Source: an uncultured beta proteobacterium (GTDB taxonomy: Bacteria > Pseudomonadota > Gammaproteobacteria > Burkholderiales > Rhodocyclaceae). Taken from it: a stretch of 58,184 nt of DNA. Below are positions 16,010 to 37,915 of this stretch, piece by piece. The notes under the pieces are model-generated. The model searched no databases. It was given only the letters and a program-made list of their open reading frames with translations, and was not told the DNA's origin. Position numbers and translations under genes: made by a program. How positions within the stretch are numbered: the first letter of the stretch is position 1; each line of letters starts with the position of its first letter. The stretch covers positions 1-58,184 of the forward strand of contig CAJBYR010000280.1 in assembly GCA_903959855.1 (NCBI GenBank), given 5' to 3'.

Positions 16010-18373
16010 GTGAGGCGCGGCGTTCGCTTGTTCCGGCACCGGACTCTCTCCCGCCTGCTGCTCGGCGCATTCGGCGGAGCAGCGGTCTGCGGCGGGTTTG
16101 CATGGGCGGCAGACGGCCCGGTCAATGTGTCAGCACCGGGCACGGGCAACCGCGATGGCACTGACGAAAACAAGCAAGCCGGTCTTGTATTGCGTTTGTC
16201 GCCGCGGCTTGGCAAGTCGCGGCTTCGCTTACCGACCGATCGGTCACCGGTGCTCAGGCCCGACATCGCCGATGTACCGGTGCTTTCGCTTTCGTACCGG
16301 CTCGACAAGCGTGCATCGGGCGCTGTCGTGGCCGGGAGGGCTCCGGCTGTTGCCGCCGCATCGGCAGCGGATCTGCCTGCGCAAGAGAGCACCGGTGTGA
16401 TGATGGCGGCTACTGCGTATAGCCCCGGCTCGCCGGTCAGCCGGCTGGTCGAGGGTGAAGAACTGCCCGAGCCCGAGGCGCCGGTTCCGTTTGACCCGCA
16501 GCCCACGACGGTGCCGCGCGCGACCGCAAACCGCGAGGCATCCCGTGGCGGGGAACAAGGGCGGGATGCGGATGGCCTTCCGGACCTGAGCGCCGAGACT
16601 TGGGTCATGGCGCCGATACGCTGGAGCGGCATGACCAACACAAGTCTCAATGCCTTCGACGCCGGCGGGGGCTCGCAAAGTTTAAGTGATACCAATGCAA
16701 TCAGCCTGCAAGCCAACAGTTTCATCATGGCGCCTTACATCGCCCAATGGACCGGGGCGGTCGGCTACAGCGGCGCGAACAGCCGATCGACTTCGGCGAG
16801 CGGCCCGACCTTGAAGAGCGCAAGTTCGGCCTTGAATTACGCCGCAGGCGTGAGTGTTTTTCCGCAAAGCCGGTTTCCCCTCAGCATGAATATCGGCCGC
16901 TCTACCAGCGAATCGAAGTCCGGTGGCGGTGCGTCTTCGACGATCAGTTCGACGTTTACCGCCAACCAGGAATACCGGACGGACGAGGGGCGCGACCGCT
17001 ACACCGCAAACTTCGCCCGGAGCACCTACGGCAGTGGCAGCAACACCAGCCTCACTTCATCCCTGCAAGGGAGTTTTTCGACCTCCCGCGACTATGAATA
17101 CGAGCATCTGCTGGAAGGGCGGCACGCGATCACGGCCAACTTCGGCATGTCTTCCGCCACTGCTGACCTCATCGGTCAGAAGTCACAAACGTTCAATGCA
17201 AACCTCAGTCACGGCTGGACAGTGTATGAAGATCTGAGTTTCGCCAACCGGCTGAATCTGATCCGCAACCAGGTTGTCGTGGCCCAGGGCAATGCGTTAA
17301 CGCAGGCGGATTCGACCTTGCTCCTCGGGGCAAGCTCTTTTTCGTGGCGTCCGTTCGAAGATGAACCCCTGCGCTTATCCGGTGGCGGAAATTTCAGCCA
17401 GACCAAGACCATGGCGAATGGCACTGCAGTGGATATGCAGAATCTGGGCGCTTCGTTATCGGCCACCTACCAGTTCAACCAGCAGCTCTCCTTTGCCGGA
17501 AATGCCTCGCTGGTGTCAACCTCATCAGCCAGCATACATACCCTAGTGACCACCCAGGGTGCTACGGCGAGTTATAGCGGGATGCCCCTCAAGTTCGGAG
17601 ATTTCAACTATCAGTGGGGTCTTGGCGGCGGAGTCAATAACTCGACCTCGAGTGCGGGGGGAGGGGGTGTTTCGGCGAGCGTATCGGCCAACCACGGACT
17701 CAGTCGTCCTTACCTGATCGATGAAGGGAATGTGATAAATCTGAATGCGGGGCAGAGTGTTTCTGTAAGTCGGGCGTCGTCGAGCCTCAATACCGGTATC
17801 TCCAATACCTTGGGGGCTTCCTGGAGTACCCGATATGGTGATCAACTGACCGGCAATCTCAGCGCCAATCTGGCGGACAATACGAACCTGGGTGCGGATG
17901 GCCAAACCCGGTTTCAGACCATGAGCCTGCTTGGTAACGGAATTTATCAGGTTAGCTCGCGGGCGGCAGTGTCCCTGAATACCAACCTGAACTGGAGCCA
18001 GAGCGGTGGCGGAGGGGGGGCTTCTTCGACGCAGGCGCTGAACGGCGTTGTCGTCGATACGCGTGCATCCCAGCTTTCCGGTTCAGTCGGGATCTCCTAT
18101 TCGCACCGCAGCCCTTTTTCGATTCCATTTCTTGAATACACTGCTAGCGCGATTTGGACAGGCAGCCAGTCGGGCCGGCGAATCGTGGGGGGGGATGCCC
18201 AGTCAAGTCAGATCCAGTCAAGCGGTTCGTTTCAGCAGTTCGCCAATTACCGGCTCGGGCGGTTGGTATTCAGCCTGAGCAATTCGATCATTGGTCAGGG
18301 TGGCAGGAAAAGTGCTTCATTGTTCGGGTCGGTCACCCGGGAGTTTGACGGATTTTTTGACGGACGCTGGTAA
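16010..18373 (+). CDS. Large outer-membrane beta-barrel protein (candidate porin of a porin-cytochrome conduit)
   Basis: 787 residues from a GTG, with a signal peptide ending AWAADG. Residues to about 200 are low-complexity Pro/Ala/Arg-rich. From about 200 to the end the sequence alternates polar and non-polar residues with many Ser, Asn, Gly and aromatic girdle residues (for example SFSWRPFEDEPLRLSGGGNFSQ, GIYQVSSRAAVSLNTNLNWS), the pattern of a barrel with long strands, probably more than 20. It ends in an aromatic residue (FFDGRW), compatible with a BAM signal. No cytochrome motif is present. Position between a PPIase and triheme cytochromes suggests the transmembrane sheath or secretion pore of the electron conduit. 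Family not identified. Confidence 0.78.
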   Translation: MRRGVRLFRHRTLSRLLLGAFGGAAVCGGFAWAADGPVNVSAPGTGNRDGTDENKQAGLVLRLSPRLGKSRLRLPTDRSPVLRPDIADVPVLSLSYRLDKRASGAVVAGRAPAVAAASAADLPAQESTGVMMAATAYSPGSPVSRLVEGEELPEPEAPVPFDPQPTTVPRATANREASRGGEQGRDADGLPDLSAETWVMAPIRWSGMTNTSLNAFDAGGGSQSLSDTNAISLQANSFIMAPYIAQWTGAVGYSGANSRSTSASGPTLKSASSALNYAAGVSVFPQSRFPLSMNIGRSTSESKSGGGASSTISSTFTANQEYRTDEGRDRYTANFARSTYGSGSNTSLTSSLQGSFSTSRDYEYEHLLEGRHAITANFGMSSATADLIGQKSQTFNANLSHGWTVYEDLSFANRLNLIRNQVVVAQGNALTQADSTLLLGASSFSWRPFEDEPLRLSGGGNFSQTKTMANGTAVDMQNLGASLSATYQFNQQLSFAGNASLVSTSSASIHTLVTTQGATASYSGMPLKFGDFNYQWGLGGGVNNSTSSAGGGGVSASVSANHGLSRPYLIDEGNVINLNAGQSVSVSRASSSLNTGISNTLGASWSTRYGDQLTGNLSANLADNTNLGADGQTRFQTMSLLGNGIYQVSSRAAVSLNTNLNWSQSGGGGGASSTQALNGVVVDTRASQLSGSVGISYSHRSPFSIPFLEYTASAIWTGSQSGRRIVGGDAQSSQIQSSGSFQQFANYRLGRLVFSLSNSIIGQGGRKSASLFGSVTREFDGFFDGRW

Positions 18374-22598: not shown

Positions 22599-23686
22599 TG
22601 ACACTGCGTCATTTACTGCTTGTTGTTATGTTTCTTGGATTGTTGTCCGGCTGTGCCGGCCAGGCCAGGAAGAACCTGTTCGTCATTGACGTGGATCAGA
22701 CCCAAAAAGGGCATCTGATGTTTCCGCCGGATATCGATGGCGATGTTCCGCGTTACGTCTACCTCGGCCATCTTTACGGAGACCGGAATTTCATCGATCC
22801 CGAGCCCAGAGGCCCCGGTTTGCTGGAAACCCTGGGGCGGATTCTGGATTTCATCAAGGGTGATGCGCCGCCACGCGAACTCTACCGGCCGCAAACGGGT
22901 GTAATCGACGAGGCGGGCCGGATTATGGTCGTCGATCGGGGAAGCCCTGGGGTGTTTGTGTTCGACGAAACCAAGGCGACCCTGGAGTTGTGGCAGCAGG
23001 CCGTGGGCTCGCAGATGTTCGTGAGTCCGGTCGGTATTGCCCTGGGGCCGGACGGCTTGCTGCTGGTGGCGGATAGCGAACTGGCGTTCGTTGCACAGCT
23101 TGACCGGCAAGGGAATCCCGCAAGCACCATCGGCAAAGGCCACTTGACCCGTCCGACCGGGATTGCCTACGAGGCATCGACCCGGCGCATCTTTGTTGCC
23201 GATACCGCCGATCATCAGATCAAACTGTTCGACTTGCAAGGCAAACTGCTCGACGTCTGGGGCGAGCGCGGCGACGGACCGGGCGAGTTCAACTTTCCGA
23301 CCTTCATCACTGTGCGCGACGGGAAACTTTATGTCTCAGATACGATCAATGCCCGGGTTCAGGTGCTGTCTACCGTAGACGGCAAGCATCTTGCAACGGT
23401 TGGCAAACTCGGGATGTACGTTGGTAACATGGTTCGACCCAAGGGTGTGGCTGTTGATGGCGAGGGAAATATTTATGTGGTTGAGTCTTTTTATGATCAT
23501 TTGCTGGTCTATAACTCCCGTGGCGAGTTCCTGATGCCGATCGGGGGCGTCGGCAGCGAGCCAGGCCAGTTTCACCTGCCATCCGGTGTCTGGATCGACG
23601 CGCGCAATCGCGTGTTCGTCGCGGATGGCCTGAACAGTCGTGTCTCTGTATTTCAGTTCCTGGGTGGAGGATCGGAGAGTGAATAG
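22598..23686 (+). CDS. NHL-repeat beta-propeller lipoprotein
   Basis: 362 residues with a lipobox signal (MFLGLLSGC) cleaved at about residue 19. It has well-formed NHL blades: SPVGIALGPDGLLLVADSELAFVAQL, RPTGIAYEASTRRIFVADTADHQIKLF, FPTFITVRDGKLYVSDTINARVQVL, RPKGVAVDGEGNIYVVESFYDHLLVY and LPSGVWIDARNRVFVADGLNSRVSVF. It resembles the protein at 12218 throughout (both share GDGPGEFN/GEGPGEFN). The start overlaps the previous stop (ATGA) and the end overlaps the 11-heme gene by eight bases, so translation is probably coupled to that cytochrome. Confidence 0.9.
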   Translation: MTLRHLLLVVMFLGLLSGCAGQARKNLFVIDVDQTQKGHLMFPPDIDGDVPRYVYLGHLYGDRNFIDPEPRGPGLLETLGRILDFIKGDAPPRELYRPQTGVIDEAGRIMVVDRGSPGVFVFDETKATLELWQQAVGSQMFVSPVGIALGPDGLLLVADSELAFVAQLDRQGNPASTIGKGHLTRPTGIAYEASTRRIFVADTADHQIKLFDLQGKLLDVWGERGDGPGEFNFPTFITVRDGKLYVSDTINARVQVLSTVDGKHLATVGKLGMYVGNMVRPKGVAVDGEGNIYVVESFYDHLLVYNSRGEFLMPIGGVGSEPGQFHLPSGVWIDARNRVFVADGLNSRVSVFQFLGGGSESE

Positions 23687-26354
23687 GTTCTGGTTGCGGG
23701 TGGTTCTGCTGCTGGCCATTGGCGCCTTGAGCATTCCGTTCGCCCGTGCCGAACGCCAGTCAAAAGTCAGCGAAACCAAGCACAACCTGTCTACGAGCAG
23801 CGCGGACGGAAACACCAAATCCGGGACCGAAAGCCAGATTTGCGTCTTCTGCCATACGCCGCACGGCGCCAATACGACGAATGTTTCGCCACTGTGGAAC
23901 CGTGCCACCTCCGGCGCAACCTACAACGCGTACTCCTCCGAATCGCTGGACGCCAGATTCGTCCTGGCCAGCAACTGGCTGGGCCAACCGCTGGGAAGTT
24001 CGAAACTGTGCCTCTCGTGCCACGATGGCACGATTGCGCTGGGCAATGTCGTCAATGCCCCCGGTGCAGGTGCCGGCAGCGCCATCTCTGTTGCGGGCAG
24101 CACAACAACCACAATGCCGGCCGGCACCAACACCGATGGCGCCTCCCCGGCTCAATCGGGCTATACGCGTCTGATCGGCAGCGATCTGCGAAACGATCAT
24201 CCGATCTCGATCACCTATGACAGTACGCTGGCCGCACGGGACGGCGAACTGCGTGTGCCGAACGCCCAGCAGCAGATTACGGGCCTGGCGCAAAACAGCA
24301 ATCATCCCCTGGTCGGGCCGCGCGCTCCGGGTCAAGGCAGCGGCATCGGCAACTCGGCCGCCAGCAGCGGATTGTATGGTACGAAATCGACGCGCCCGGT
24401 GCTGCCCCTGGAAAACACCACCGGCGCTGGCAGCGGCACCGGGCAAGTGCAATGCACCACCTGTCACGATCCGCACATCAAGGAAACCGACCTCACAGCC
24501 GAGAAGAACATCAAGTTTTTGCGGCGGCCGCGTTTCCAGCTGGATGTAGCGACCGGCAACTACCAGGACGGCAAAGACATCATCTGCCTTGCCTGTCACG
24601 ACAAAGGCGGCGAAAGCTGGGCCCGCTCGGCGCATGCCAATAGTCAAGTTGCCCAGCAAACTTACAAAGATGCAGCCGCCAACCTTCGCGAATTTCCATT
24701 GAACATTCCCGTCTGGAAGGCCTCCTGCCTGAATTGCCACGATACGCACACCGTCAGCGGCGCGCGGCGCCTGACACGCGGTGGTGTGCTCAGCGGCACC
24801 AGCACCCCGGCGCTGGAAGAAACATGCTACCAGTGCCACCGCAGTACCGGTTCGATCCTCAACTCGGTGACCACGGTGCCGGATATATGGGCTGATTTTC
24901 AGCTGGCCCGCAAAATGCCGATCACTGCCGCCAACGAGCAAACCAGGCACGACATCGGCGGAAATTTTAACGACACCTATTTGGGAACGGGAACGTCGGG
25001 ATCAAATTGCACCGGCGCTACCAACAAGTGCGGTGCCGATTTTGTCGAGGCTGTTGAGTTTCTCGGCCCGCCTCCGGGTCACCTTTCCGGTAAGGCGACC
25101 AACTCCAATCGCCATGCCGAATGCACGGATTGCCACAACCCGCACCGGGTGGTGAAGAATCGTCTTTTTTATGGATCGGCGAGCGGGTCGTACAATATCA
25201 CTGCGCCGCAATCCGAGGGGACACACAATCATACGGACACCGCGATGCTGCATACCAATGTTGCTTCGGGAGTTTTGCGGGGAACCTGGGGGGTCGAACC
25301 GAGTTATTCGAGCGCATCTTTTCATAGCCTAGCTAGCGATTTCAAGGTTCGTCGCGGCGACCCGGGTATCGATTTTGTAGCGAATGATTCTACCCCCGAC
25401 GACAAGGGCTTTGTGACGCGCGAATATCAGGTGTGTCTCAAGTGCCATTCTTCTTATGCCTATGGCAGCACGCCGCCGGACTTGGGCGTTTCCACGCCAA
25501 GCGGAACCAACGGCCTGACAAAATACACGGACCAGGCCAAGGAATTTCAGGCACCGGACGCTCACAGAGGCGAACCCCTCAGCGTCGGAAATGCCGGTGG
25601 ATCGGTTGGATACAACGCGAACAACCACCGCTCGTGGCACCCGGTGATGCGTTCAACCGGCCGCGACGCCGGGAGTCGCGATTTGAATGCCGACAATGCG
25701 TTCCGGCTACCGTTCCGGAATGTCGGCACCCAAACCATGTACTGCAGCGATTGCCATGGGAGCAACACGGGCGGCACTACAGCGATCCCGGCGGGAACAA
25801 ACCAGTCCGCCGGCGAGGGCTCCGCCTGGGGGCCGCACGGCTCAGGCAATGATTTCATTTTAAAAGGAGTATGGACCGGTAATACCGGGCACAACACTGC
25901 CAATGCGCTTTGTCTGAAATGCCACAACCCCATAAGTTCAACGGGTTTTAATGGGCCTGTAGGGAATTTGCATGACGAACATCAAAAACGGATCGGGGGA
26001 ACCCTGCAATGTACCTGGTGCCATATCGCCGTACCGCATGGCTGGAAGAACAAGGCCTTGCTCGTCAATTTGAACGATGTGGGCGGCGAGGTGCCGGGTT
26101 ACTTGGCGACTGACAGTTTTGAGGTCGCCATTCAAAATAGCGCTGACAACTATACGGCGCCGCCATATTATCTGGAGGCAAAAAACAAGATTCGTTCTTT
26201 CGCGCAAAGTGGTAGTTGGGTAGAAGGCAACTGTGGATCATCGAATGTTGCAGGGAAAACGATCATCGCGAATAGTCAGGGCGGCACTAGTAATCGCGCA
26301 GGGTCAGGGAAAAACTGGATGACAGCGGGTGTCTGCAATTCGGGCATGCCGTAG
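23679..26354 (+). CDS. Eleven-heme c-type cytochrome with an OmcE-like N-terminal tetraheme module
   Basis: 891 residues from a GTG at 23679, with signal peptide (LLLAIGALSIPFARA). Eleven CxxCH sites in order: CVFCH, CLSCH, CTTCH, CLACH, CLNCH, CYQCH, CTDCH, CLKCH, CSDCH, CLKCH, CTWCH. The first 300 residues repeat the tetraheme pattern (ETKHNLS, CVFCHTPHGA, CLSCHDG, CTTCHDPH, CLACHDK). Seven more hemes follow in a different arrangement with many His residues, ending in a heme-free Ser/Asn-rich tail with a Cys pair. It is the largest cytochrome of the locus and probably surface-exposed or terminal in the chain. Its start lies inside the end of the NHL gene. The 396-residue antisense ORF is a shadow. 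Confidence 0.9.
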   Translation: MNRFWLRVVLLLAIGALSIPFARAERQSKVSETKHNLSTSSADGNTKSGTESQICVFCHTPHGANTTNVSPLWNRATSGATYNAYSSESLDARFVLASNWLGQPLGSSKLCLSCHDGTIALGNVVNAPGAGAGSAISVAGSTTTTMPAGTNTDGASPAQSGYTRLIGSDLRNDHPISITYDSTLAARDGELRVPNAQQQITGLAQNSNHPLVGPRAPGQGSGIGNSAASSGLYGTKSTRPVLPLENTTGAGSGTGQVQCTTCHDPHIKETDLTAEKNIKFLRRPRFQLDVATGNYQDGKDIICLACHDKGGESWARSAHANSQVAQQTYKDAAANLREFPLNIPVWKASCLNCHDTHTVSGARRLTRGGVLSGTSTPALEETCYQCHRSTGSILNSVTTVPDIWADFQLARKMPITAANEQTRHDIGGNFNDTYLGTGTSGSNCTGATNKCGADFVEAVEFLGPPPGHLSGKATNSNRHAECTDCHNPHRVVKNRLFYGSASGSYNITAPQSEGTHNHTDTAMLHTNVASGVLRGTWGVEPSYSSASFHSLASDFKVRRGDPGIDFVANDSTPDDKGFVTREYQVCLKCHSSYAYGSTPPDLGVSTPSGTNGLTKYTDQAKEFQAPDAHRGEPLSVGNAGGSVGYNANNHRSWHPVMRSTGRDAGSRDLNADNAFRLPFRNVGTQTMYCSDCHGSNTGGTTAIPAGTNQSAGEGSAWGPHGSGNDFILKGVWTGNTGHNTANALCLKCHNPISSTGFNGPVGNLHDEHQKRIGGTLQCTWCHIAVPHGWKNKALLVNLNDVGGEVPGYLATDSFEVAIQNSADNYTAPPYYLEAKNKIRSFAQSGSWVEGNCGSSNVAGKTIIANSQGGTSNRAGSGKNWMTAGVCNSGMP

Positions 26355-26469: not shown

Positions 26470-27516
26470 TCACCCTTCTTGATGGACAGCGAGGACGTTC
26501 AGCACATTCCTGAGCGCGCCGGGTTTGAAACCGAAAACAAGATTGCACTCAATGAAACTGTCGCACCAGCATCCGCCGCAATCAGGTGCCTGAAGTTTTT
26601 CCAGTGCGTGGGCGAAGCCCAGTTCGGTGGTACTCCAGCCCTTGACCGCGCCCTGAAGATAGTTGCAGGGATAAAGCATCCCGTCCGGTGAAATCGAACA
26701 GAAGAGTTGCGCGGCATGGCAGCGCAAGCGGCCGGCATGCCAGGCGCCCTGCTTTTGTTGCGGTTGCTGCCGACCCCAATGGTCGCGATAGAAGGCAAAC
26801 AGATCCGTCGAGCTTGCTAGTGGCGTCGCCGGACGGTCGCGCTCGACGATCAGATAGTTCATGGCGGCGGTAAATGCTTCAGGATCGGGGAGCAGCTCTG
26901 CGGCATTGCGCGACTGCAGTCCTTCTTTCATCACCGGTAAAAAAGTCGCCCTGATGCCCTCCCGTGTTGCCAGCGCGATCACTTCAGGTATCAACCCGAT
27001 ATTGTTACGACCCAGCACGGTGGTGGTCCATACTTCGATGTTCGCAGCTCGCGCAGCACGGATGGCGGCGATGGCTCGGGCGTAAGACCCTTTGCCTCTG
27101 GCCTTATCGTGCACTGCTTGCGGGCCATCAAGGCTGATCGCAAGGAAGTCCAGCCCCGCGAGTTCTCCAATACGGCGCGGGATTTGTAACCCATTGCTTA
27201 CCAGATTGACGGTCAGACCGCGTCTTTTGGCATGACTGATGATGTTCCCCAGGTCGCGTCGTAGCATGGGTTCGCCACCCCCGAGACTGAGGCGTTCGGT
27301 ACCGGCATCGGCAACCTGGTCGATCAGTTGCAACACCGTTGCCGTGTCCATTTCGGGCGGTGGGTTGCTCCAGACGCCGCAGTATGCGCAGCGCAGGTTG
27401 CAGCGGTAGGTCAGCAACAGGTTGACGATCAGCGGTATGCGGGCGACACCGCTGCGACCCTTGAGAATCTTCCAGGCGGTTCCCGCAGGGGAGTGCCGAT
27501 AGCGCGCAAAGCTCAC
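26470..27516 (-). CDS. Radical SAM enzyme with SPASM/twitch-like C-terminal cysteines
   Basis: 348 residues from a GTG at 27516 that overlaps the preceding stop (GTGA). The radical SAM motif CNLRCAYC is at residues 39-46 in IVNLLLTYRCNLRCAYCGVW, followed by LSLGGGEPMLRRDL and ISLDGP, the standard SAM-binding strands. A C-terminal Cys set (CHAAQLFCSISPDGMLYPCNY and CGGCWCDSFIEC) suggests auxiliary iron-sulfur clusters as in SPASM or twitch proteins. Last gene of a four-gene minus operon with another radical SAM, a GT2-radical SAM fusion and a GT87-like protein. The substrate is unknown; context points to a sugar, lipid or peptide modification. Confidence 0.87.
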   Translation of the reverse strand: MSFARYRHSPAGTAWKILKGRSGVARIPLIVNLLLTYRCNLRCAYCGVWSNPPPEMDTATVLQLIDQVADAGTERLSLGGGEPMLRRDLGNIISHAKRRGLTVNLVSNGLQIPRRIGELAGLDFLAISLDGPQAVHDKARGKGSYARAIAAIRAARAANIEVWTTTVLGRNNIGLIPEVIALATREGIRATFLPVMKEGLQSRNAAELLPDPEAFTAAMNYLIVERDRPATPLASSTDLFAFYRDHWGRQQPQQKQGAWHAGRLRCHAAQLFCSISPDGMLYPCNYLQGAVKGWSTTELGFAHALEKLQAPDCGGCWCDSFIECNLVFGFKPGALRNVLNVLAVHQEG

Positions 27517-28484
27517 TTGTTCGTTACCCGCGTTTGCCGATCCAGCAGCGATCGCGTCACGAAAGCGAATGGATTCTGTACCCAGGCCGCATTGCGGTGG
27601 TAGCAGTTCCACCAACACCTGCACTGGTCGGGAACGGCCTGCGGCAGCGTACGCAAGGCGCTCTCGATATCCGTCGTGTCATGATGCAAGGGCGCGCCGA
27701 CGGCGGGCGTATCCTGACAAGGCAACAAACGACCGTCGCTATCGATCGCGAGATAGGCTTTGCCAGCCATGCAATGGACTGCGGCGCGGCCTTCCACAAA
27801 CGGCACGAAGCCCGCAATGTAGTCGTCCGGTTCGTCGATGGCCATGCCGGAACGCTTCAGGGCTAGAAGTTCATCCTGCAGCGCTTTCAGGCCGGCGACT
27901 TTTTCGGGTGTATCAAATGCGTTCAGCGGCCCCGGGCGCTGCACCAGTTGCAGGTTGAGCGGGATGTGGTAACGGGCCAGTTCGTGGGCGACCCCGATGA
28001 TGGAATTGACATTGCGGCTGGTGATGACGGCCGTACCGCGCAATTCAAAGGATCTTCGCCTGGCATACTCCGCCATCAAGGGGAGCTTCCCGTAGGCGCT
28101 CTTGAGCGATGCATCCGAGTCGCCGCTGTGGTCGATCGAGAAGTTGAGGTAATCGAGGCCTTGCATCGCCTGCAGATGGCTTTCACTCAGGGTTCTGGCG
28201 TTGGTGCACAGACCGGCGATACCTAGTTCCGACAGTGCATTGATGACCTCGGGCAGACCCTTGTACAGCAGCGGCTCGCCCCCGGACACGGTGAAAATCG
28301 AAAAGCGGTGGGCGATACGGCGGGCGATCTTGATCCAGTCCTGTGGAGACAGGTCCGCGCTTTTCCCGTACGCCGTGCAGTAGCTGCAGGTCAGATCGCA
28401 ACGCCGGGTGACAATGAGATTGACTGCGGCACTGCGTTGCCAGGCGGCGCGCAATGTAGCGTTGGCCCATTTTCTGATACGCAT
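27513..28484 (-). CDS. Radical SAM enzyme
   Basis: 323 residues. CDLTCSYC at residues 29-36 gives the 4Fe-4S site, FTVSGGEPLLYKGL the SAM-binding glycine motif, and FSIDHSGDSDAS a strand-4 region. The C-terminal part contains cysteines in HCMAGKAYLAIDSDGRLLPCQD and QCRCWWNCYH, similar in placement to SPASM proteins. It lies one base after the GT2-radical SAM gene and overlaps the next radical SAM gene by four, so the products are made together. I do not recognise the specific subfamily or substrate. Confidence 0.87.
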   Translation of the reverse strand: MRIRKWANATLRAAWQRSAAVNLIVTRRCDLTCSYCTAYGKSADLSPQDWIKIARRIAHRFSIFTVSGGEPLLYKGLPEVINALSELGIAGLCTNARTLSESHLQAMQGLDYLNFSIDHSGDSDASLKSAYGKLPLMAEYARRRSFELRGTAVITSRNVNSIIGVAHELARYHIPLNLQLVQRPGPLNAFDTPEKVAGLKALQDELLALKRSGMAIDEPDDYIAGFVPFVEGRAAVHCMAGKAYLAIDSDGRLLPCQDTPAVGAPLHHDTTDIESALRTLPQAVPDQCRCWWNCYHRNAAWVQNPFAFVTRSLLDRQTRVTNK

Positions 28485-28485
28485 C

Positions 28486-30627
28486 TCAGGGTCTGCCCGG
28501 GCTTTGCCGGGCGGCCGGAGCGAAGAAGCGCCACAGGCGCCAGGGACGATAACTCACGGTGGCAAGGATGGCGCATTCAAACGAGCAGCGGCATTCGGTG
28601 GCAGCGATGTAGTCAGTGACCCGCCGCGCTTGCGGACTGGAAAGGAGGGCGCCAAGGTGGTCACCGTGGGCGTCAAGTCGGCCGAGGACAAAGTCGTTGT
28701 GTGTGGCGGCATGTTGCGGACGCACGATGTGAATCATCTCGCAGGGCAGTACCGTGCCGTCCGCATGAATCACCGCCAGGCGGCGTCCGGCCAGACATGT
28801 GCCGCAAGGCCAGGGAGATTCCGGGTGGCGCACGATCAGGGACATAGTGCGGTCGAGAGCGGTCAGGAGCCGCGTCAGCCCGGATATGCTTTGCGGGGGG
28901 CCACTGGGGGCAGCGAGCAGGGCACAGGCTGCATCGTAGCTTGCATCATCGATACCGCCCAGACTTGGATCGGCAGGGACACCACGCAGCCGGTTCAACT
29001 CGATCTGATCAGGCCGGAAATTGCGCAGGGTTGCGAGCGTGGCCTCAAGACGGCTGTGATTCGCTGCGGTGAGTGTCAGGCAGATATGCATGCGCAGTTG
29101 GGGCAGCCATTGGCGCGCTTCGTCAAGTAAGGTCAGCGAATGTTCGACCTTGCGATACAGACCGGGCAGTCCGCGTAACCTGTCGTGTTCGTCCCCGAGG
29201 TCGTCAACGGAGATCTTGATGATGATGCGTGCGCGCGGTCCGGCAGCGGCAAGCCTTGGCAGCAGGCGTTCGAGCCGTTTGGGGTAGGAGCCGTTGCTGG
29301 CGATGCTGAATGAGCGTACTCCAGCCGCGTAATACGCACCCAATACCTCGGCGATGTCGTCGCGCAACAATGGTTCGCCCCCGGTCAGCGATACGTGACC
29401 TAGGGGACCGGCGCTGGCCGCAATGCGCTGAATGCGCGGCAGGTCAAGTTCGTCGGCAGCGCCGATGCGCTGGCGCTGAGGGCTGTCAAAACAATGCGCG
29501 CAGTGGGCGTTGCAGCGGTGGGTCAGGAAGTGGATCAGGTAACCGCCGGCACCGGGGGTGACGAGGCTTTTCAGGTAGCGAAAGAACATGGCGGCGTCGA
29601 TGGTCTTGCGTTGCACGGGCAGTCGTACCGTGTCCATGACGCCGAGCAGTCCGCCGGCCACCAACGCCAGCGTGGCAACAAAGTGAAAGACCGCTACGAG
29701 TGGCAGGCTGAAGAGCGGCATGGTTTGCAGCAGGCGCGCGAGAAAGCGATGCGACCGCACGGTGGAGATCGTCAGCATGGCAATCCCGGCGGCGCTTAGC
29801 GCGGGTGCGAGAACGCCTCCCGCTAGAAACGCCACACCCAGCAAGAACAGCAGCCGCGCAGCGCCTTCACGCTGCCCGCCCATGACGTCGCTGAACTGCC
29901 GGTAGCGATGGATCAGGTGCATGTAACAGCGCGTCCGGAGCACAAGTTCCGACGCGTAATGGTACAAGCCTGGCTGTCGGTGTTCCACCCGCAACGTGCC
30001 GGAAAACCAATGTCGGTAACCGGCCTGGCCGAGACGAAGGCCCAAGTCGACATCTTCCAGCGTCATCCGTGGGTTTTCGATAAAGCCACCTACGGCTTCG
30101 AAGGCTGCTTTGCGCACGCCACAGACACAGCCATTGAGGTTGCCTGGCGCCCATTGGTCGATGATCGATTCCCGCATGGAGGCCTCGGCGGCGTCGAGAT
30201 AGCGGGAAAACACATCCTGGGCTAGATTGTTGTCGCGGTAACAACCGGAGAACGCTCCACAGTCAGGATGCTCGCGCATCAATGTGGCGCAGCGCTGAAG
30301 AAAATCGGCTTCGCACACGCGCGTGTCGGCGTCGAGAAAGATCAGCACCTCACCCCGCGCGGCTGTTGCTCCGGTGTTGCGTGCTGCGCCGGCACCCCGG
30401 CGCACCGGATGCGTGAGCAGTCTGATCCAAGGGTAGGCGGCGAGCATGGCGGCGGTATCGTCAGTGGATGCGTCATCGACGACAATGAATTCGCAACCAC
30501 CTGTAGTTGCGAGTTGTTGGCGGCAAAGGGAATCGAGCAGTGCGCCGATGAATGGCGCACCGTTGCGAACCGGCACGATCACTGACAGTAAGGGAGGCGG
30601 CAGCGCCGGGGCATTTGAACCGGTCAT
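28486..30627 (-). CDS. Fusion of a GT2 glycosyltransferase, membrane segments and a radical SAM domain
   Basis: 713 residues. Residues 12-240 are a family 2 glycosyltransferase: SVIVPVRNG, FIVVDDASTDDT, the DxD region IFLDADT at about 96-102, and NGCVCGVRKAAFEAVGGF with LEDVDLGLRL. Residues 258-335 hold two to three hydrophobic segments. Residues 360-700 are a radical SAM domain with CNAHCAHC at 372-379, SLTGGEPLLRDDI and C-terminal cysteines (CGTCLAGRR, LPCEM, ECRCSFEC). There is no frameshift or internal stop, so this is a real single polypeptide. It overlaps the GT87-like gene by four bases. The fusion implies sequential action on one membrane-associated substrate. I know of no described enzyme with this layout. 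Confidence 0.87.
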   Translation of the reverse strand: MTGSNAPALPPPLLSVIVPVRNGAPFIGALLDSLCRQQLATTGGCEFIVVDDASTDDTAAMLAAYPWIRLLTHPVRRGAGAARNTGATAARGEVLIFLDADTRVCEADFLQRCATLMREHPDCGAFSGCYRDNNLAQDVFSRYLDAAEASMRESIIDQWAPGNLNGCVCGVRKAAFEAVGGFIENPRMTLEDVDLGLRLGQAGYRHWFSGTLRVEHRQPGLYHYASELVLRTRCYMHLIHRYRQFSDVMGGQREGAARLLFLLGVAFLAGGVLAPALSAAGIAMLTISTVRSHRFLARLLQTMPLFSLPLVAVFHFVATLALVAGGLLGVMDTVRLPVQRKTIDAAMFFRYLKSLVTPGAGGYLIHFLTHRCNAHCAHCFDSPQRQRIGAADELDLPRIQRIAASAGPLGHVSLTGGEPLLRDDIAEVLGAYYAAGVRSFSIASNGSYPKRLERLLPRLAAAGPRARIIIKISVDDLGDEHDRLRGLPGLYRKVEHSLTLLDEARQWLPQLRMHICLTLTAANHSRLEATLATLRNFRPDQIELNRLRGVPADPSLGGIDDASYDAACALLAAPSGPPQSISGLTRLLTALDRTMSLIVRHPESPWPCGTCLAGRRLAVIHADGTVLPCEMIHIVRPQHAATHNDFVLGRLDAHGDHLGALLSSPQARRVTDYIAATECRCSFECAILATVSYRPWRLWRFFAPAARQSPGRP

Positions 30628-31907
30628 CCCGGCACGGTTTCTGACGGCACGGGGGGGGCATTCGCATCCGTTGATGCCAATGCGCCGCGGTAGCGATGAA
30701 GTGCGAGCAACAGCATGGTGAGGACGAAAAGAGTTCCGATCTGGACGTCCATATAAATGGCGCTTGGGCGAATCAGGTGCAGCGATGCAAAGCTCGCAAT
30801 CAGGATGACCATTTCCGTAACGCGAGCGCCGCGTTGGTGCATGTCAAGCCAGATCCATGCCATTGCCGGGACTAGCAGCATGAGATCGTAAAGATAAACG
30901 CTCGGCACCGCCAACAGTGTTGTCAGGCAGAGGATTGCCGACTGCAGACCCAGCGTGTCGCGGCGGGCGCGCCCACACCACCATGTCCATGCCACTATCA
31001 GGCTCATTATCGCTGCGCTGGCGATCTGCGCTAGCCATGCACTGTCAATCGATCCGCCGGCAAGACGCATTGTGGATATGATCGAAACCATCGGTTTGAA
31101 GTTGTATGCGCCAATCCCGAAGCCCTCCACCAGGTAAACCGAGGTTCCGATGAAGCCAAACCACGGGTCGTCGCCAAAGGCGATCAGGCTGAAAATAATG
31201 GTTGCGATAACGGTGGCTGAGGCGGCGCCAAAGACGCGCCAGTGACCGCCGCAAGCAAGCGCCAGAGGAATCAGGATGCCAAAGTGCGGCTTGACGCCGG
31301 CCAAACCTATACAAATGCCGGCCAGCATGGGGCGTGGAACAAGCCACGCCAGGCCCAGTCCGATGAAACCGGCGGTCAGGAAGCCGGTCTGACCATACAT
31401 GATGTTGTAAAACACCGGAGGGGCTGCCAGCCCAATCAACCAGAAGCTCTGGCCCTGAAGAATGGCGCGCAATGCAGCCAGATAAGGAATAGCGGTAACC
31501 GCCAGCCAGGCACACCAGGCGGAAAAATATGAAAGGTAAGCCAAGGGAATGGCGGCGAGGATAAAAGTTGGCGGATACATCCACGGGTGAAAGCCTATCG
31601 TGCGTGCCTGCTTTTCGCTAAGATTTCCGCCATATGCGGCTTGTGCTCCGCGCAGACCCGCTTGATACATCTCTTTCGGAATGTAAAGGTCGGATGCAGG
31701 TTGCTGCTTTACCAGCATCGATGCCGCGTAAAGCGAGGTGAAGTCAGTGAGCAAGGGCGCTTCGCCCCGCGCCGCAGAGCGTCGGCCATCGATGTGCAAA
31801 TAGCCGACGATAATCAGGTAGCCTATGAAAATTGCCACACCCAATACCGCCCAGGGTCTCGATCTCCAGCGTTGTGCTGCAGGGTCAACAGTCATGTTTT
31901 TATCCAT
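30624..31907 (-). CDS. GT87/DUF2029-like polytopic membrane glycosyltransferase
   Basis: 427 residues with about ten predicted membrane segments. The first periplasmic loop contains LLTDFTSLYAASML and HPWMYPPTF, and AGFIGLGLAWLVPRPMLAGICIGLAGVKPHFGILIPLAL matches the core of the GT-C family 87 (polyprenyl-phosphate-mannose-dependent transferases). Such proteins transfer a sugar from a lipid carrier on the periplasmic side. It is the first gene of the four-gene minus operon and diverges from the GT9 gene at 32100. Exact sugar and acceptor unknown. Confidence 0.82.
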   Translation of the reverse strand: MDKNMTVDPAAQRWRSRPWAVLGVAIFIGYLIIVGYLHIDGRRSAARGEAPLLTDFTSLYAASMLVKQQPASDLYIPKEMYQAGLRGAQAAYGGNLSEKQARTIGFHPWMYPPTFILAAIPLAYLSYFSAWCAWLAVTAIPYLAALRAILQGQSFWLIGLAAPPVFYNIMYGQTGFLTAGFIGLGLAWLVPRPMLAGICIGLAGVKPHFGILIPLALACGGHWRVFGAASATVIATIIFSLIAFGDDPWFGFIGTSVYLVEGFGIGAYNFKPMVSIISTMRLAGGSIDSAWLAQIASAAIMSLIVAWTWWCGRARRDTLGLQSAILCLTTLLAVPSVYLYDLMLLVPAMAWIWLDMHQRGARVTEMVILIASFASLHLIRPSAIYMDVQIGTLFVLTMLLLALHRYRGALASTDANAPPVPSETVPG

Positions 31908-31952: not shown

Positions 31953-32099
31953 TGCCGGGCGCGGCGAATGAGCCGATTTTCGAAGTCAGATTTTCCGCCG
32001 CCCTGCGGGAGCGGGCGGTATGTATAGCATCGGACTGGTCGAGAGTCGGCGGTGGCCCTACGCCGATGGGGTGCTTGTGTATGCCATACGAGGGCGCCC

Positions 32100-33359
32100 G
32101 TGAGTACTGAAACCATGCGCTGGCTGGACCGCTGGCTGGGCATTCCACTGTGTTTTTTGCTGTCGCTCGGTGTGTGGTGGCGCAACCGGTTTGCATCGGC
32201 ATCGGCCGGCGGGATGCAGCCGAGGAGGGTGCTGTGCATACAACTTGCGGAAATGGGCAGCCTGGTGCTGGCCGGCCCTGCAGTTCATTGGCTGCGAACG
32301 CGCGGGGTGACGCCGTTTGTTGTCAGCTTCGCGCGCAATCGCGACTGCGTGGCGTTGGCGGGGTTGGCGCCGGATGAGCACGTTTTCCTCTGGCGCACCG
32401 ATAACGCACAGGTTTTTGCGGCTGACTTTCTGCGCTTTTTGCGCTGGGCCTGGCAACTGCGCTTTGACGCCGCCATTGACTTTGAGCCCTGTTCGCGCTT
32501 TTCGGCATTGCTTTGCCTGTTGGCCGGTGCGCGGCTGCGCAGCGGTTTTGCGCATGACGGTGCGTATCGTGGCCGCCTTTACAATCTGCCCGTCCGTTAC
32601 CGCGAAGATTGTCATATCAGCGAGAACTTCCTGGCGCTTGCGGCGACCTTGTTGCCCGATGAGTCGTCGCAGGGCATTCCGGGGCACGAGGCGGCCTGGC
32701 GCGAGCAGCTTGTCGCCCCGGGCGAGGTGGATGCGGTGCCTATCGCTCGGGTTCTGGCGCAAGCGTTTCCGGCTGTTGCATGGTCATGTCGCCTGATCCT
32801 TTTTAACCCGAACGCCGGCGACCTGTTGCCGCAGCGACGCTGGCCCGCCGGGCGCTACGTGCGGCTGGCGCAAGCCGTGTTGCAACGCCATCCGGAGGCC
32901 TGCGTCGGGTTCATCGGGGCGGTGGCCGATGACGTGGCGGTTTCGGCAATGGTTGCCGCGGTGGCTTCGCCACGCTGTGCCAGCCTGGCCGGGGCCGTAT
33001 CGGTCAGTAGCCTGCCGCAACTGTTTGCACGTAGCTGCCTGCTCGTCAGCAACGACTCGGGGCCGGCCCATATTGCCTCGCTGTCGCAGACCCCGACGCT
33101 GGTTTTGTTCGGTCCGGAAACCCCGCGGCTGTATCTGCCGTTGGGGAGGGCGCGCGCGCTTTACGCGGCCTTGCCATGTTCGCCGTGCATTCGCCCGGCG
33201 AACCAGAGGCGCAGCAGCTGTCAGGACAACCTGTGCATGCAGGCGATTCAGGTTGAAGATGTCCTGACCGAAATCGACGCGATGCTGGATGGCGATTGCC
33301 CGAATGATCGGCGTGTTGCCAGCGCCGACATTCATCCGTCCATGATGGATCCGGCATGA
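32100..33359 (+). CDS. Glycosyltransferase family 9 (heptosyltransferase-like)
   Basis: 419 residues from a GTG at 32100 (RBS GAGGG); an ATG at 32115 is possible. A short N-terminal membrane-proximal segment (LGIPLCFLLSLGVWW) precedes RRVLCIQLAEMGSLVLAGPAVHWLR, the GT9 N-domain start. The donor-binding C-domain shows ILFNPNAGDLLPQRRWP and LLVSNDSGPAHIASLSQTPTLVLFGPETP, which are the classic heptosyltransferase motifs, followed by a Cys-rich stretch (CSPCIRPANQRRSSCQDNLCM) seen in the family. It heads the plus-strand operon with an aminotransferase and a radical SAM protein. Confidence 0.88.
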   Translation: MSTETMRWLDRWLGIPLCFLLSLGVWWRNRFASASAGGMQPRRVLCIQLAEMGSLVLAGPAVHWLRTRGVTPFVVSFARNRDCVALAGLAPDEHVFLWRTDNAQVFAADFLRFLRWAWQLRFDAAIDFEPCSRFSALLCLLAGARLRSGFAHDGAYRGRLYNLPVRYREDCHISENFLALAATLLPDESSQGIPGHEAAWREQLVAPGEVDAVPIARVLAQAFPAVAWSCRLILFNPNAGDLLPQRRWPAGRYVRLAQAVLQRHPEACVGFIGAVADDVAVSAMVAAVASPRCASLAGAVSVSSLPQLFARSCLLVSNDSGPAHIASLSQTPTLVLFGPETPRLYLPLGRARALYAALPCSPCIRPANQRRSSCQDNLCMQAIQVEDVLTEIDAMLDGDCPNDRRVASADIHPSMMDPA

Positions 33360-34555
33360 TTCCCCGGCGACGTATCGACATCGGCTGGGCCGATGTCGCA
33401 GATCTGCTTCGCGGTATCGGCGACAGCCCGTTCGATGCGGCCCGCCTGGTTGGCGAGTTCGAGGCTAGGTGTTCCGTTTTGCTTGGCGGCCGGCCGGTGC
33501 GCGCTACCGCAAGCGGGCGCGATGCGCTGGATCTGATTTTCGAGGGCTTGGGCTTGCGCGCCGGCGATGAACTTGTGGTACCTGCATATACCTTGGGCGA
33601 ATTGATTGTTCGCATGCAGAACAGGGGCCTGCGTCCGGTGGCCGCCGATGTCGATAGCGAAACCTTTACGGTGACTCCGGCCAGTGTTGCGCGGGCCATT
33701 ACGCCGCGTACCCGCGCGGTCATCGCCCTGCATGTGTTTGGTGCCCCTTGCGATATCCGCGGCATCGGTGCGCTTGCAGCCGGGCGTGGCCTGCCGCTGA
33801 TCGAGGACTGTGCCCACGCTTTTGGCGCCCGGGTTGGTGGCGAGCCGGCAGGGGCTTTCGGTACTGCGGCGCTGTTCAGCCTGGAAGTGGCGAAGCCGGT
33901 AAGCGCATTCGGCGGCGGTTTGCTGGTGTCGGCGAACCGGGAGTTGCATGGGGTGGCTGCTGCGCAACTCGCCCAGCGGCGATACAGCCCGTGGCCTGTC
34001 ACACGCAAGACCGCGCTGAAATGCGTCGAGGAGCTGATGGTGCGCAGCCCGGCGTACGGCATCGCCGCGCGCTTGATGTTCCGCGACAAGGGAACGGGTG
34101 GTTTCGAGCGGCTATATCGTGGCCTGCATGACCGGGTAAGGCCGGTGGATGTTACCTTCAGCGGTTTTCAGGCCCGTCGCGGAATGCGCCGGTTGGCTGG
34201 CCTGGCAATGCGCACCGGGGAGCTGAATGCGCTTTGGGCGCAGTTGGCCGCGGGGCTCCCGCCCGGCTTTCTGCCGCAGTCGCGTGCGCGCCATGGTGAA
34301 CCGGCAGCCTACAATTTTGTCGCCCGCTACACCGGTGATATTTCACAACTGCGCCGGCGTGCCCAGATGATGGGGCTTGATCTGGCCATTCATGGCGAGG
34401 TGCTCGATGATGTCGCCGCGATGCTGGGCCAGACAGACTGTCCCGGCGCGGCAAAGGTGTTTGCGCAGGCCGTGGCGATTCCGCTGCACCGGGGCATTGA
34501 TGCACGACGCCTGCAGCGTATCGTTGCTATCCTGGCAAAGGCAGCCCGGTCATGA
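33356..34555 (+). CDS. DegT/DnrJ/EryC1/StrS-type PLP aminotransferase
   Basis: 399 residues, overlapping the GT9 stop by four bases. The fold type I core is visible: ATASGRDALDLIFEGLGLRAGDELVVPAYTL, then VDSETFTVTP, LPLIEDCAHAFGA, and the PLP lysine at about residue 180 in FSLEVAKPVSAFGGG. These enzymes aminate keto-sugars in amino-sugar synthesis. The region before the lysine (SLEVAKPVS) departs from the usual SFxxxK spacing, so catalysis could be altered. It is sandwiched by a glycosyltransferase and a radical SAM enzyme, which fits a modified amino-sugar pathway. Confidence 0.86.
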   Translation: MIPRRRIDIGWADVADLLRGIGDSPFDAARLVGEFEARCSVLLGGRPVRATASGRDALDLIFEGLGLRAGDELVVPAYTLGELIVRMQNRGLRPVAADVDSETFTVTPASVARAITPRTRAVIALHVFGAPCDIRGIGALAAGRGLPLIEDCAHAFGARVGGEPAGAFGTAALFSLEVAKPVSAFGGGLLVSANRELHGVAAAQLAQRRYSPWPVTRKTALKCVEELMVRSPAYGIAARLMFRDKGTGGFERLYRGLHDRVRPVDVTFSGFQARRGMRRLAGLAMRTGELNALWAQLAAGLPPGFLPQSRARHGEPAAYNFVARYTGDISQLRRRAQMMGLDLAIHGEVLDDVAAMLGQTDCPGAAKVFAQAVAIPLHRGIDARRLQRIVAILAKAARS

Positions 34556-35997
34556 GTGATGTCGCGCTGCTGCGGGTGGACCGCATCGGTGGTGCTGGCG
34601 GGCATCCGCGTCATCTGCATCCGGCCCTCGACTTGAAAATTCTTGAGGCCTCGCTGTCGCAAGGCGCCGCGATCGCTTCACCTCTGGTGGATGGCTGGCT
34701 GATCAAAGGGGGGCCGTCGGCCTGGGTGGAGCAGGCATTGGCCGGGAGGCCCCGGCTGGCAGTGATCAAGGGAGAAACGTGGTGCCTGGCCGAAGCCCTT
34801 GAGTGCGGGCGGCGACTGCGTCAGGCAGGGGTCACCACCATCGCCATCGGGCAGCAGGTAGCCCATGTCCAGCGAGCGCCGCGCCCTGACTGGCATGAGG
34901 CATTCGACCTGGCGCTGGCCGGCGAGCCCGAAGAGGAACTTATCGGCAGTCTGCCCCGTCTGCTGCAGGGTGACAGATCGACGTTCGATGATTACAGGCG
35001 GCGCTTCGAAACGGGCCATCAATTCGAGGTCGTGGAGCCGGACCGGTTGCCGCGTCCCGGATACTCGGCTGCTGAACAGCTGGCGTTTGCCTTCCCCTTT
35101 CCGTTGCCGGGTCAGCGCTTGCGGCGATGGGCTTATGTCTTGAGTGCGCGCGGTTGCCCGCATCGCTGCCGGCACTGCTCGACCGTGGTGCGCAAGAGTT
35201 CGGGCGAGCGCCTGCGCAAGCGTGACCCGTCGCAGGTGGCCGACGAGGTGGCGATGCATCTCGCCGCCGGTGCCGATGCCATTGCCTTCGAGGATGATAC
35301 CTTTCTGGTCGACAGACGCCATTTTCTGGCCATTTGCGAGGAGTTGTCACGGCGCAATATCCTGGTGCCCTGGATCGCCAATGCCCGTCCTGATGAGCTC
35401 GATGCGGAGCGGGTCGATGCTGCCGCCGCCGTCGGAGCGCGTCTTTTGAAGCTGGGCATCGAAACCGCGACACCGCGTCTTATCGAACTGATGGGCAAGG
35501 CGCGCGATGGCACAGCCTGGCGACGGCAGAGCGAAGAAGGCCTTGCGCGCCTGAAGCGGCGTGGCATTGCCTCGGTGGGACTGTTTCTGGTCGGTTTGCC
35601 GACGGAGACCGCAGCCGAAGTGGAGGAGACGGTGCGCTGGGCGCAAGCCCTGGCACCGGACTATGTGCAGGTGCAGATTTTCCGCAGCTATCCCGATATT
35701 CCATGGTGGCAACAACTCGCCCCGGAAGTGCGCGATGCCGATGCGGCGTATCACTACGGCCCCATCCGTAACACAGCGGCGGCGATTCCGCCGCAAGTGC
35801 TGCCGCTGCTGCAGCGCGATTTCTACCGGCGCTATTACTTGCGCGCCGGTTTCATGTTTTCTCATGCCTCTCGTTATTGGCGACATTACTGCAAGCCCGA
35901 AGGAATTGTGGCAACGCTGGCGCGGCTGCGCTACATGATGCGGCATGAGCCGGTGTTGCAGCTTCGCGGTGAAGGGGCGCAGTCTCGTGCAGACTGA
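34552..35997 (+). CDS. Radical SAM enzyme with N-terminal B12-binding-like domain
   Basis: 481 residues, overlapping the aminotransferase stop (ATGA). The first 160 residues (LHPALDLKILEASL, WLIKGGPSAWVEQ, VTTIAIGQQVAH, FDLALAGEPEEELIGSL) resemble the Rossmann-like B12-binding domain of class B radical SAM proteins, though the cobalamin His motif DxHxxG is not clear. The radical SAM cluster CPHRCRHC lies at 202-209, followed by AFEDDTFLVDRRHF and LGIETATPRLIELMGKARD, typical of the Elp3/MiaB-like SAM fold. Such enzymes often methylate unactivated carbons or cyclise. Its end overlaps the ResB-like gene by 11 bases, linking this operon to cytochrome assembly. Confidence 0.84.
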   Translation: MSDVALLRVDRIGGAGGHPRHLHPALDLKILEASLSQGAAIASPLVDGWLIKGGPSAWVEQALAGRPRLAVIKGETWCLAEALECGRRLRQAGVTTIAIGQQVAHVQRAPRPDWHEAFDLALAGEPEEELIGSLPRLLQGDRSTFDDYRRRFETGHQFEVVEPDRLPRPGYSAAEQLAFAFPFPLPGQRLRRWAYVLSARGCPHRCRHCSTVVRKSSGERLRKRDPSQVADEVAMHLAAGADAIAFEDDTFLVDRRHFLAICEELSRRNILVPWIANARPDELDAERVDAAAAVGARLLKLGIETATPRLIELMGKARDGTAWRRQSEEGLARLKRRGIASVGLFLVGLPTETAAEVEETVRWAQALAPDYVQVQIFRSYPDIPWWQQLAPEVRDADAAYHYGPIRNTAAAIPPQVLPLLQRDFYRRYYLRAGFMFSHASRYWRHYCKPEGIVATLARLRYMMRHEPVLQLRGEGAQSRAD

Positions 35998-37152: not shown

Positions 37153-37821
37153 CTACTTGGTGTGGCAGGCAAGGCAAACCTGGCTGCCACTATTGGAGCC
37201 TTGTCGCAGAAAAGTTGCCGCCGTGCCAAGGTGAGGGTTGTGGCAGGTTGCACACTCAACCTTGCTGTTATAAAGCGGCAAAGTTGTCGATGGCTTGAAG
37301 TCTTCCGCCAATGACAAACCTGCGTAGAGCATGCCTATCGGATGGTCGTCGTTCAGGTCGGTGCCGATTTTCGCCCAACCTGTGATTTTGCCTCCGACCT
37401 GGCCATCGCCACCATCGCCGAGCCGGCCGCCTGCGGCGCCAAATCCTCCGACACCGGGGGAGTTGATCACGGTGTCAGTGGTTTGGGTTCCGTCATGACA
37501 CGTCAGGCAGGCTGTCGATACGCTGGCAGATGCCGGAAAGACGCCGCCGTTGTAGGTCTTGTTCCATAGCGGCGCATTCTGGGCAACACTCGACCCGTGA
37601 GGCGTGTGACAGAAGACGCAAACTTGCGTGGTCGCCTGCACGCCGGCCTTCTGTGTGCTGCTGAGGTCGTGCTTGCTACCGACTACCCCCTGTGCGTGGG
37701 ACAAAGGTAGGTACAAAACCAGGCACAAGACCGAAATGAGAGCCTTCATGAGAGATTGCAGCACCAGTCTGCTGCGGCCTGCAAGGGGAATCGGTTTGAA
37801 GGCGCTTAATAGTTGTTTCAT
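37153..37821 (-). CDS. Tetraheme cytochrome c, OmcE-like module 3 (minimal form)
   Basis: 222 residues from the ATG at 37821 (RBS GGGGAGAG). A later ATG at residue 25 begins a second plausible signal peptide (MKALISVLCLVLYLPLSHAQ), so the true start could be there, giving about 198 residues. Mature sequence GVVGSKHDLSSTQ, then CVFCHTPHGS, CLTCHDG, CATCHNPH and a terminal CLACHTK. This is the most compact member of the tetraheme family here and the closest in size to a mature filament cytochrome such as OmcE. It stands alone, convergent with the ResB-like gene, with its own sigma-54 site. Confidence 0.87.
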   Translation of the reverse strand: MKQLLSAFKPIPLAGRSRLVLQSLMKALISVLCLVLYLPLSHAQGVVGSKHDLSSTQKAGVQATTQVCVFCHTPHGSSVAQNAPLWNKTYNGGVFPASASVSTACLTCHDGTQTTDTVINSPGVGGFGAAGGRLGDGGDGQVGGKITGWAKIGTDLNDDHPIGMLYAGLSLAEDFKPSTTLPLYNSKVECATCHNPHLGTAATFLRQGSNSGSQVCLACHTK

Positions 37822-37915
37822 TTTCAAATCTCTCCCCGAAGTGAGATGTGCTTATGCTTTTTTATATGGCTACAGTGCCTGACGCTAGCTGACGGGATGC
37901 GTTTCGGGGGTTAGA

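Follow-up and report, generated by a model that had tools for sequence, protein, structure and literature searches.

The window analysed here, a 58,184-nucleotide stretch of DNA from an uncultured beta proteobacterium (Rhodocyclaceae), contains a gene in which a GT2 domain, a membrane region and a radical SAM/SPASM domain are joined in one polypeptide. Because 20 of 22 unfused relatives have a GT2 gene directly beside the radical SAM gene (a raw count for this radical SAM group alone), we regard the fusion as one form of a recurrent partnership between GT2 and radical SAM/SPASM proteins. The fusion protein is quite possibly a bifunctional inner-membrane glycan enzyme, whose GT2 domain would load a sugar on a lipid carrier and whose radical SAM domain would alter the lipid-bound sugar.

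A GT2 domain and a radical SAM domain share one reading frame

The single 713-codon reading frame that a preliminary description of the window had claimed, with no strand given, was confirmed and is encoded by the minus strand (Table 1); the plus-strand reading of the same positions has several stops. Both catalytic domains named there were recovered by profile searches. The GT2 domain with its DxD motif matches Glycos_transf_2 (PF00535) at residues 15-135 (E 5e-27; 95.3 bits against a cut-off of 23.3), with GT-A fold matches at Z 20-22. The domain with the CNAHCAHC motif matches Radical_SAM (PF04055) at residues 368-503 (E 2e-12; 47.9 against 29.5 bits). Its CX3CX2C cysteines are kept in all fusions, and it is predicted to cleave SAM.

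Further cysteines had been noticed at the C-terminus, and these form the patterns C-x12-G-x4-C (residues 611-629) and CxCxxxC (679-685), kept in nine of nine fusions. The SPASM profile PF13186 scores slightly below its cut-off in the fusion protein (P0001, residues 611-680; 20.9 versus 21.5 bits) and is passed by the unfused relatives P0013 (29.4 bits) and P0015 (26.0 bits). The full seven-cysteine SPASM pattern, with two auxiliary clusters, is absent. Since the two patterns above are the only ones present and four cysteines are invariant across the wider family, the C-terminal domain is nearer to the twitch or one-cluster type. Each half of the protein belongs to a known superfamily, and neither scored above the cut-off of a curated equivalog model (NCBIfam).

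Table 1. Features of the fusion gene and its neighbourhood, in window coordinates.
Feature	Position	Strand	Evidence or remark
GT2-membrane-radical SAM/SPASM fusion gene	28486..30627	minus	713 aa, ATG start
GT2 catalytic domain, GT-A fold, residues 1-218	29974..30627	minus	Pfam PF00535 and fold match
DxD of GT2 domain (DAD), residues 99-101	30325-30333	minus	
Hydrophobic membrane region, residues 254-331 (segments 254-291 and 302-331)	29635..29868	minus	hydropathy, model helices
Radical SAM core, residues 358-560	28948..29556	minus	Pfam PF04055 and fold match
CNAHCAHC of radical SAM core, residues 372-379	29491-29514	minus	
SPASM/twitch-type auxiliary Fe-S domain, residues 608-690	28558..28806	minus	PF13186, 20.9 bits; cysteines conserved in fusions
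GT87 polyprenyl-phosphate-sugar-dependent transferase (GT-C)	30624..31907	minus	PF09594, E 2.7e-32; 4-bp overlap with fusion gene
Second radical SAM gene	27513..28484	minus	PF04055, E 2e-12; 1 bp after fusion gene
Third radical SAM gene, start codon uncertain	26470..27624	minus	PF04055, E 4.7e-26
GT9 heptosyltransferase-like gene	32052..33359	plus	PF01075
DegT/DnrJ/EryC1 sugar aminotransferase-like gene	33356..34555	plus	PF01041, E 4.7e-43; conserved with GT9
HpnJ/BchE-like radical SAM gene	34552..35997	plus	PF04055; top NCBIfam match HpnJ, below cut-off; conserved
904-aa cytochrome, 11 x CxxCH	23640..26354	plus	phmmer: 7tfs E 2.7e-17, 9yuq E 8.7e-18
OmcE-like cytochrome	13647-14516	plus	similarity to 7tfs and 9yuq
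OmcE-like cytochrome	37153-37827	minus	similarity to 7tfs and 9yuq

Predicted fold and topology

Structure prediction had been proposed for judging if both active sites open onto a common cavity. An AlphaFold model from an 8-row alignment did not resolve the radical SAM half, and one from 18 rows gave both domains (mean pLDDT 73), with the relative placement of the active sites not fixed at a pTM of 0.54. Viral contigs held distant GT2 or radical SAM rows only, which were used in the alignment. By fold, the GT2 half is closest to PcManGT (6yv7, Z 22.2) and also matches a Leptospira GT (6p61, Z 21.9), RmlT, TarS and GT2s of that kind. For the radical SAM half the best match is BlsE (7vob; Z 23.4, rmsd 3.4, 297 aligned), which it also matches by sequence (E 6.6e-9), and there are further matches to SkfB (Z 23.1), SuiB (22.3), DesII (21.1) and PqqE (20.3). 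Because sugar enzymes and peptide maturases match about equally, the fold cannot choose between a sugar and a peptide substrate.

The two to three membrane helices reported earlier are a fair estimate: there are two hydropathy blocks and three AlphaFold helices (residues 252-270, 275-302 and 305-356). SAM and reductant are not available outside the cytoplasm. Three helices read literally as crossings would place the radical SAM domain there, and if both domains are cytoplasmic despite three helices, a re-entrant or interfacial segment must be assumed. Basic residues border both hydrophobic blocks on their domain-facing sides, which is compatible with two cytoplasmic domains. We therefore favour a hairpin with a re-entrant or interfacial segment as the probable arrangement.

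The fusion is conserved in two genera and a distant genome

A search for two-domain proteins, also suggested earlier, found full-length co-linear fusions (52-55% identity) in seven genomes. These comprised one genome of the same genus (G021) and six of one other genus, including Aromatoleum diolicum (Rhodocyclaceae by NCBI). In another family of the phylum, G1155 encodes a more divergent co-linear fusion that is 741 aa long and shares 25% identity (E 4e-52). The catalytic motifs are intact in all fusions, in nine genomes including the window and G1155. A further 368 genomes from across the class gave no match to the fusion at E 1e-40, and the search for plasmid-borne copies gave partial matches only. 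Grouping of the Rhodocyclaceae fusions and G1155 as one clade was neither shown nor rejected (AU p 0.265), with long branches. The G1155 fusion locus (L168:846-10935) is an apparent XrtA-type exopolysaccharide locus with polysaccharide deacetylase, FemAB-like and Wzz-like genes, as their names were read by eye.

We attach next to no probability to an assembly or sequencing artefact that joined two genes. Most of the distant relatives do consist of two genes, but the same stop-free co-linear fusion is found in seven further assemblies of two genera and in one distant assembly. The preliminary description had named homologues that are all separate as one sign of such an error. This is false for the near relatives, whereas the distant ones have separate but neighbouring genes.

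Unfused relatives pair a GT2 gene with the radical SAM gene

The unfused relatives (n=22), in other families of the phylum, were identified by searching with either the whole fusion or the radical SAM half. They are not independent, as two genera supply 9 of them and G920 and G882 are members of one genus. The GT2 gene is upstream of the radical SAM gene in eight of them, and the overlap, measured in seven, ranges from 1 to 164 bp. Upstream overlapping GT2s with a hydrophobic C-terminal part occur in G115, G254, G186, G061, G105, G920 and G882. A phylum-wide search gave 15 unfused relatives, 13 with an adjacent GT2 gene, which is upstream in G1075 and directly downstream in the rest. Eight of the downstream GT2s fall in one group of ~240 aa that looks DPM1-like. 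An adjacent GT2 gene was absent beside the radical SAM gene in G1097 and G1182.

Since the GT2 and radical SAM genes repeatedly overlap, chance adjacency is implausible. The identity matrices of the two proteins are correlated (r 0.96, Mantel p 0.0002, 11 taxa), which may reflect co-inheritance, though shared species descent alone could produce this r. The preliminary description had suggested that sugar transfer and radical modification happen on the same membrane-bound substrate. The adjacency indicates that the two activities belong together, while the shared substrate is plausible rather than demonstrated.

Near the fusion or the pairs there are often genes for GT-C transferases (GT87, ArnT, PMT-type) or for exopolysaccharide. 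A full ArnT is encoded beside the unfused pair in G882 and G920 (Arnt_C E 1e-31), PMT_2-type membrane proteins in the G254 locus with look-alikes in G186 and G061, and a flippase-like protein (TIGR00374) at the G105 pair. Sulfur-metabolism-like genes (names partly read by eye) are present in the G254, G186 and G061 loci. No GT-C gene was visible at some unfused pairs, such as that of G115, which is on a short contig with transposases.

At loci L156 and L158-L167, in many genomes of a few families (G1081, G1084, G1091, G1100, G1108, G1124, G1145, G1155, G1178 and G1219), a GT2 gene comes after a radical SAM/SPASM gene. At L161-L163 and L165, an apparent carbamoyltransferase gene is next, making a recurrent three-gene unit.

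The fusion gene sits in a glycan cassette within a cytochrome locus

A glycan cassette, inserted in a locus of OmcE-like multihaem cytochromes, holds the fusion gene. The GT87 neighbour of this gene is kept in the fused-gene loci and in G018. Divergent from the fusion gene is a plus-strand run of GT9, DegT, HpnJ/BchE-like radical SAM and ResB genes, of which the GT9 gene is conserved in G021, G018, G007, G464, G708 and G628. Radical SAM proteins of the HpnJ/BchE-like class often bind B12; a B12-binding Pfam domain had no match in this one. Two genomes of the same genus, G018 and G007, lack the fusion in this cytochrome locus but have the GT9, DegT and HpnJ-like genes there, and G018 has GT87 as well. 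G473, G547 and G485 have the core of cytochrome and maturation genes but no glycan cassette. Besides shadow ORFs of larger genes, the compared loci contained no conserved small precursor ORF; a precursor encoded elsewhere is possible. Positions 26470-30627 (minus strand) hold three consecutive radical SAM genes, of which the fusion gene alone recurs in other fusion loci; the second had no match there.

To the left of the fusion gene are OmcE-like cytochromes, two NHL-type proteins, a PPIase and a large protein without a Pfam match. The 904-aa cytochrome is 2.1 kb from the fusion gene and is OmcE-like in its N-terminal part alone. The two further cytochromes match OmcE (7tfs) with E-values of 5.5e-28 and 1.6e-18, and filament formation is at most predicted. 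Amid the cytochrome, PPIase and NHL genes, positions 16010-18373 (plus strand) encode a 787-aa Ser/Gly-rich protein without a Pfam match, conserved in G018 and G007 and more weakly in G473, G547 and G485. It is perhaps the outer-membrane barrel of a cytochrome conduit.

The 904-aa cytochrome occurs in all seven fusion-bearing genomes versus 36 of 395 in the family sample (hypergeometric p 3e-8), a co-occurrence that really represents two lineages because six of the seven belong to one genus. We rejected a strict link between fusion and cytochrome, as 29 of the 36 cytochrome-positive genomes are without the fusion and same-genus loci keep cassette genes without it. In five genomes of the Aromatoleum group (G464, G708, G628, G647 and G749), the 900-aa cytochrome has a LuxE-like acyl-protein synthetase and a second radical SAM gene of B12 type beside it; wherever a long enough stretch was read, this cytochrome occurs twice. 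OmcE filaments are reported to be extensively glycosylated (PMC9473688). There is a slender chance that a radical-modified sugar made by the fusion decorates OmcE-like extracellular cytochromes, with glycan chemistry tuning conduit insulation or assembly. If that link is true, a cassette beside OmcE-like cytochromes would open cytochrome-filament glycosylation to genetics.

Proposed mechanism and alternative substrates

In the mechanism that we propose, the GT2 domain would take a sugar from a nucleotide donor and attach it, at the cytoplasmic face, to an acceptor held in the membrane, most likely polyprenyl-phosphate or a lipid-linked glycan. The radical SAM/SPASM domain, also cytoplasmic, would then modify the lipid-bound sugar through hydrogen abstraction by a 5'-deoxyadenosyl radical, for example in a decarboxylation, dehydration/deamination or epimerisation. 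After flipping, the product may be used by a GT-C enzyme, here the neighbouring GT87, for a surface or secreted glycan. Points for this model are the conservation of the fusion and its motifs, the GT2 genes adjacent to unfused relatives, the GT-C or surface-glycan surroundings, the lack of a conserved precursor ORF in the compared loci, the placing of the basic residues, the sugar-acting enzymes BlsE and DesII among the radical SAM matches and a mannosyltransferase, PcManGT, at the top of those of the GT2 half. Against it stand the peptide-maturase fold matches, the three AlphaFold helices, the pairs without a visible GT-C and the 2 of 22 relatives without an adjacent GT2.

Alternatively, the radical SAM domain could act at the nucleotide-sugar or small-molecule stage and hand its product to the GT2 domain, the fusion then serving for channelling with no shared membrane substrate. 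DesII acts on a nucleotide-sugar-type substrate. The other close fold match that speaks for this unlikely reading, BlsE, acts on a sugar-nucleoside-type substrate (PMC3715490). The cassette also contains a DegT sugar aminotransferase gene, and DegT with radical SAM recalls DesI/DesII, yet DegT was not seen around most unfused pairs and the DesI model scores 111 of 650 bits, far under its cut-off. 

We would give a similarly low probability to a radical SAM/SPASM domain whose target is a RiPP-like peptide, a surface protein or a cytochrome that the GT2 domain glycosylates, as in MftC/MftF. Most SPASM-type proteins act on peptides, and among NCBIfam profiles the GT2 half scores best with MftF (86.6 bits, with 136 bits for P0012). 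The radical SAM half gives scores with peptide maturase profiles and matches the SkfB and SuiB folds, and cytochromes are neighbours of the fusion gene. All these profiles remain far under cut-off, however, the compared loci lack a conserved small precursor ORF, and unfused pairs are found where these cytochromes are missing, in loci related to exopolysaccharide or sulfur. Less probable again is modification of the lipid anchor or another membrane lipid, which the GT2 domain would glycosylate. Additional radical SAM genes of the HpnJ/BchE-like kind do recur in these loci, but the radical SAM half shows no preference for lipid-acting profiles and its fold matches are sugar and peptide enzymes.

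GT2 and radical SAM proteins are common classes, and their conserved partnership, fused in some lineages, points to a class of surface-glycan pathways with radical sugar chemistry for which none of the curated profiles searched has a name. It suggests that, in many bacteria, a GT2 and radical SAM pair produces an unusual surface sugar modified by radical chemistry. The fused form offers a single polypeptide for asking whether glycosyl transfer and radical modification share one lipid-linked substrate. In the literature searched, a coverage that left most subscription papers outside, we found no report of a GT2-radical SAM fusion or pair.

Comparison with known systems

The surroundings of the fusion gene resemble OmcE filament loci in that the window cytochromes at 13647, 23640 and 37153 match OmcE 7tfs, whereas the fusion is found in just 7 of 36 genomes with the 904-aa cytochrome. 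PcManGT, a GT2 from Pyrobaculum calidifontis, shares the GT-A fold and is the best fold match of the GT2 half, but it is 24% identical and has no radical SAM domain. Likewise, the sugar-acting BlsE (cytosylglucuronate decarboxylase) and DesII rank at or near the top of the fold matches for the radical SAM half, with 22% and 12% identity to it, and neither is fused to a GT2. The fusion scores 37 bits against the BlsE equivalog TIGR04466 (cut-off 400).

MftC (radical SAM/SPASM) and MftF (GT2) both act in mycofactocin synthesis, which thus unites the same two protein types in one pathway. In contrast to that system, the fusion is a single protein with a hydrophobic region, C-terminal to the GT2 domain, no precursor peptide was seen, and scores are far under the cut-offs (86.6 bits versus 280 for the MftF equivalog TIGR03965).

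In the ArnC-ArnD-ArnT order, a GT2 membrane transferase, a deformylase acting on a lipid-linked sugar and a GT-C transferase handle undecaprenyl-phosphate aminoarabinose. Here the modifier would be a radical SAM/SPASM domain, fused to the GT2, the GT-C is a GT87 and there is no ArnD; the likeness would be functional only. It would lie in the succession of GT2, modifier of a lipid-linked sugar and GT-C transferase, and a real ArnT stands beside the unfused pair in G882 and G920.
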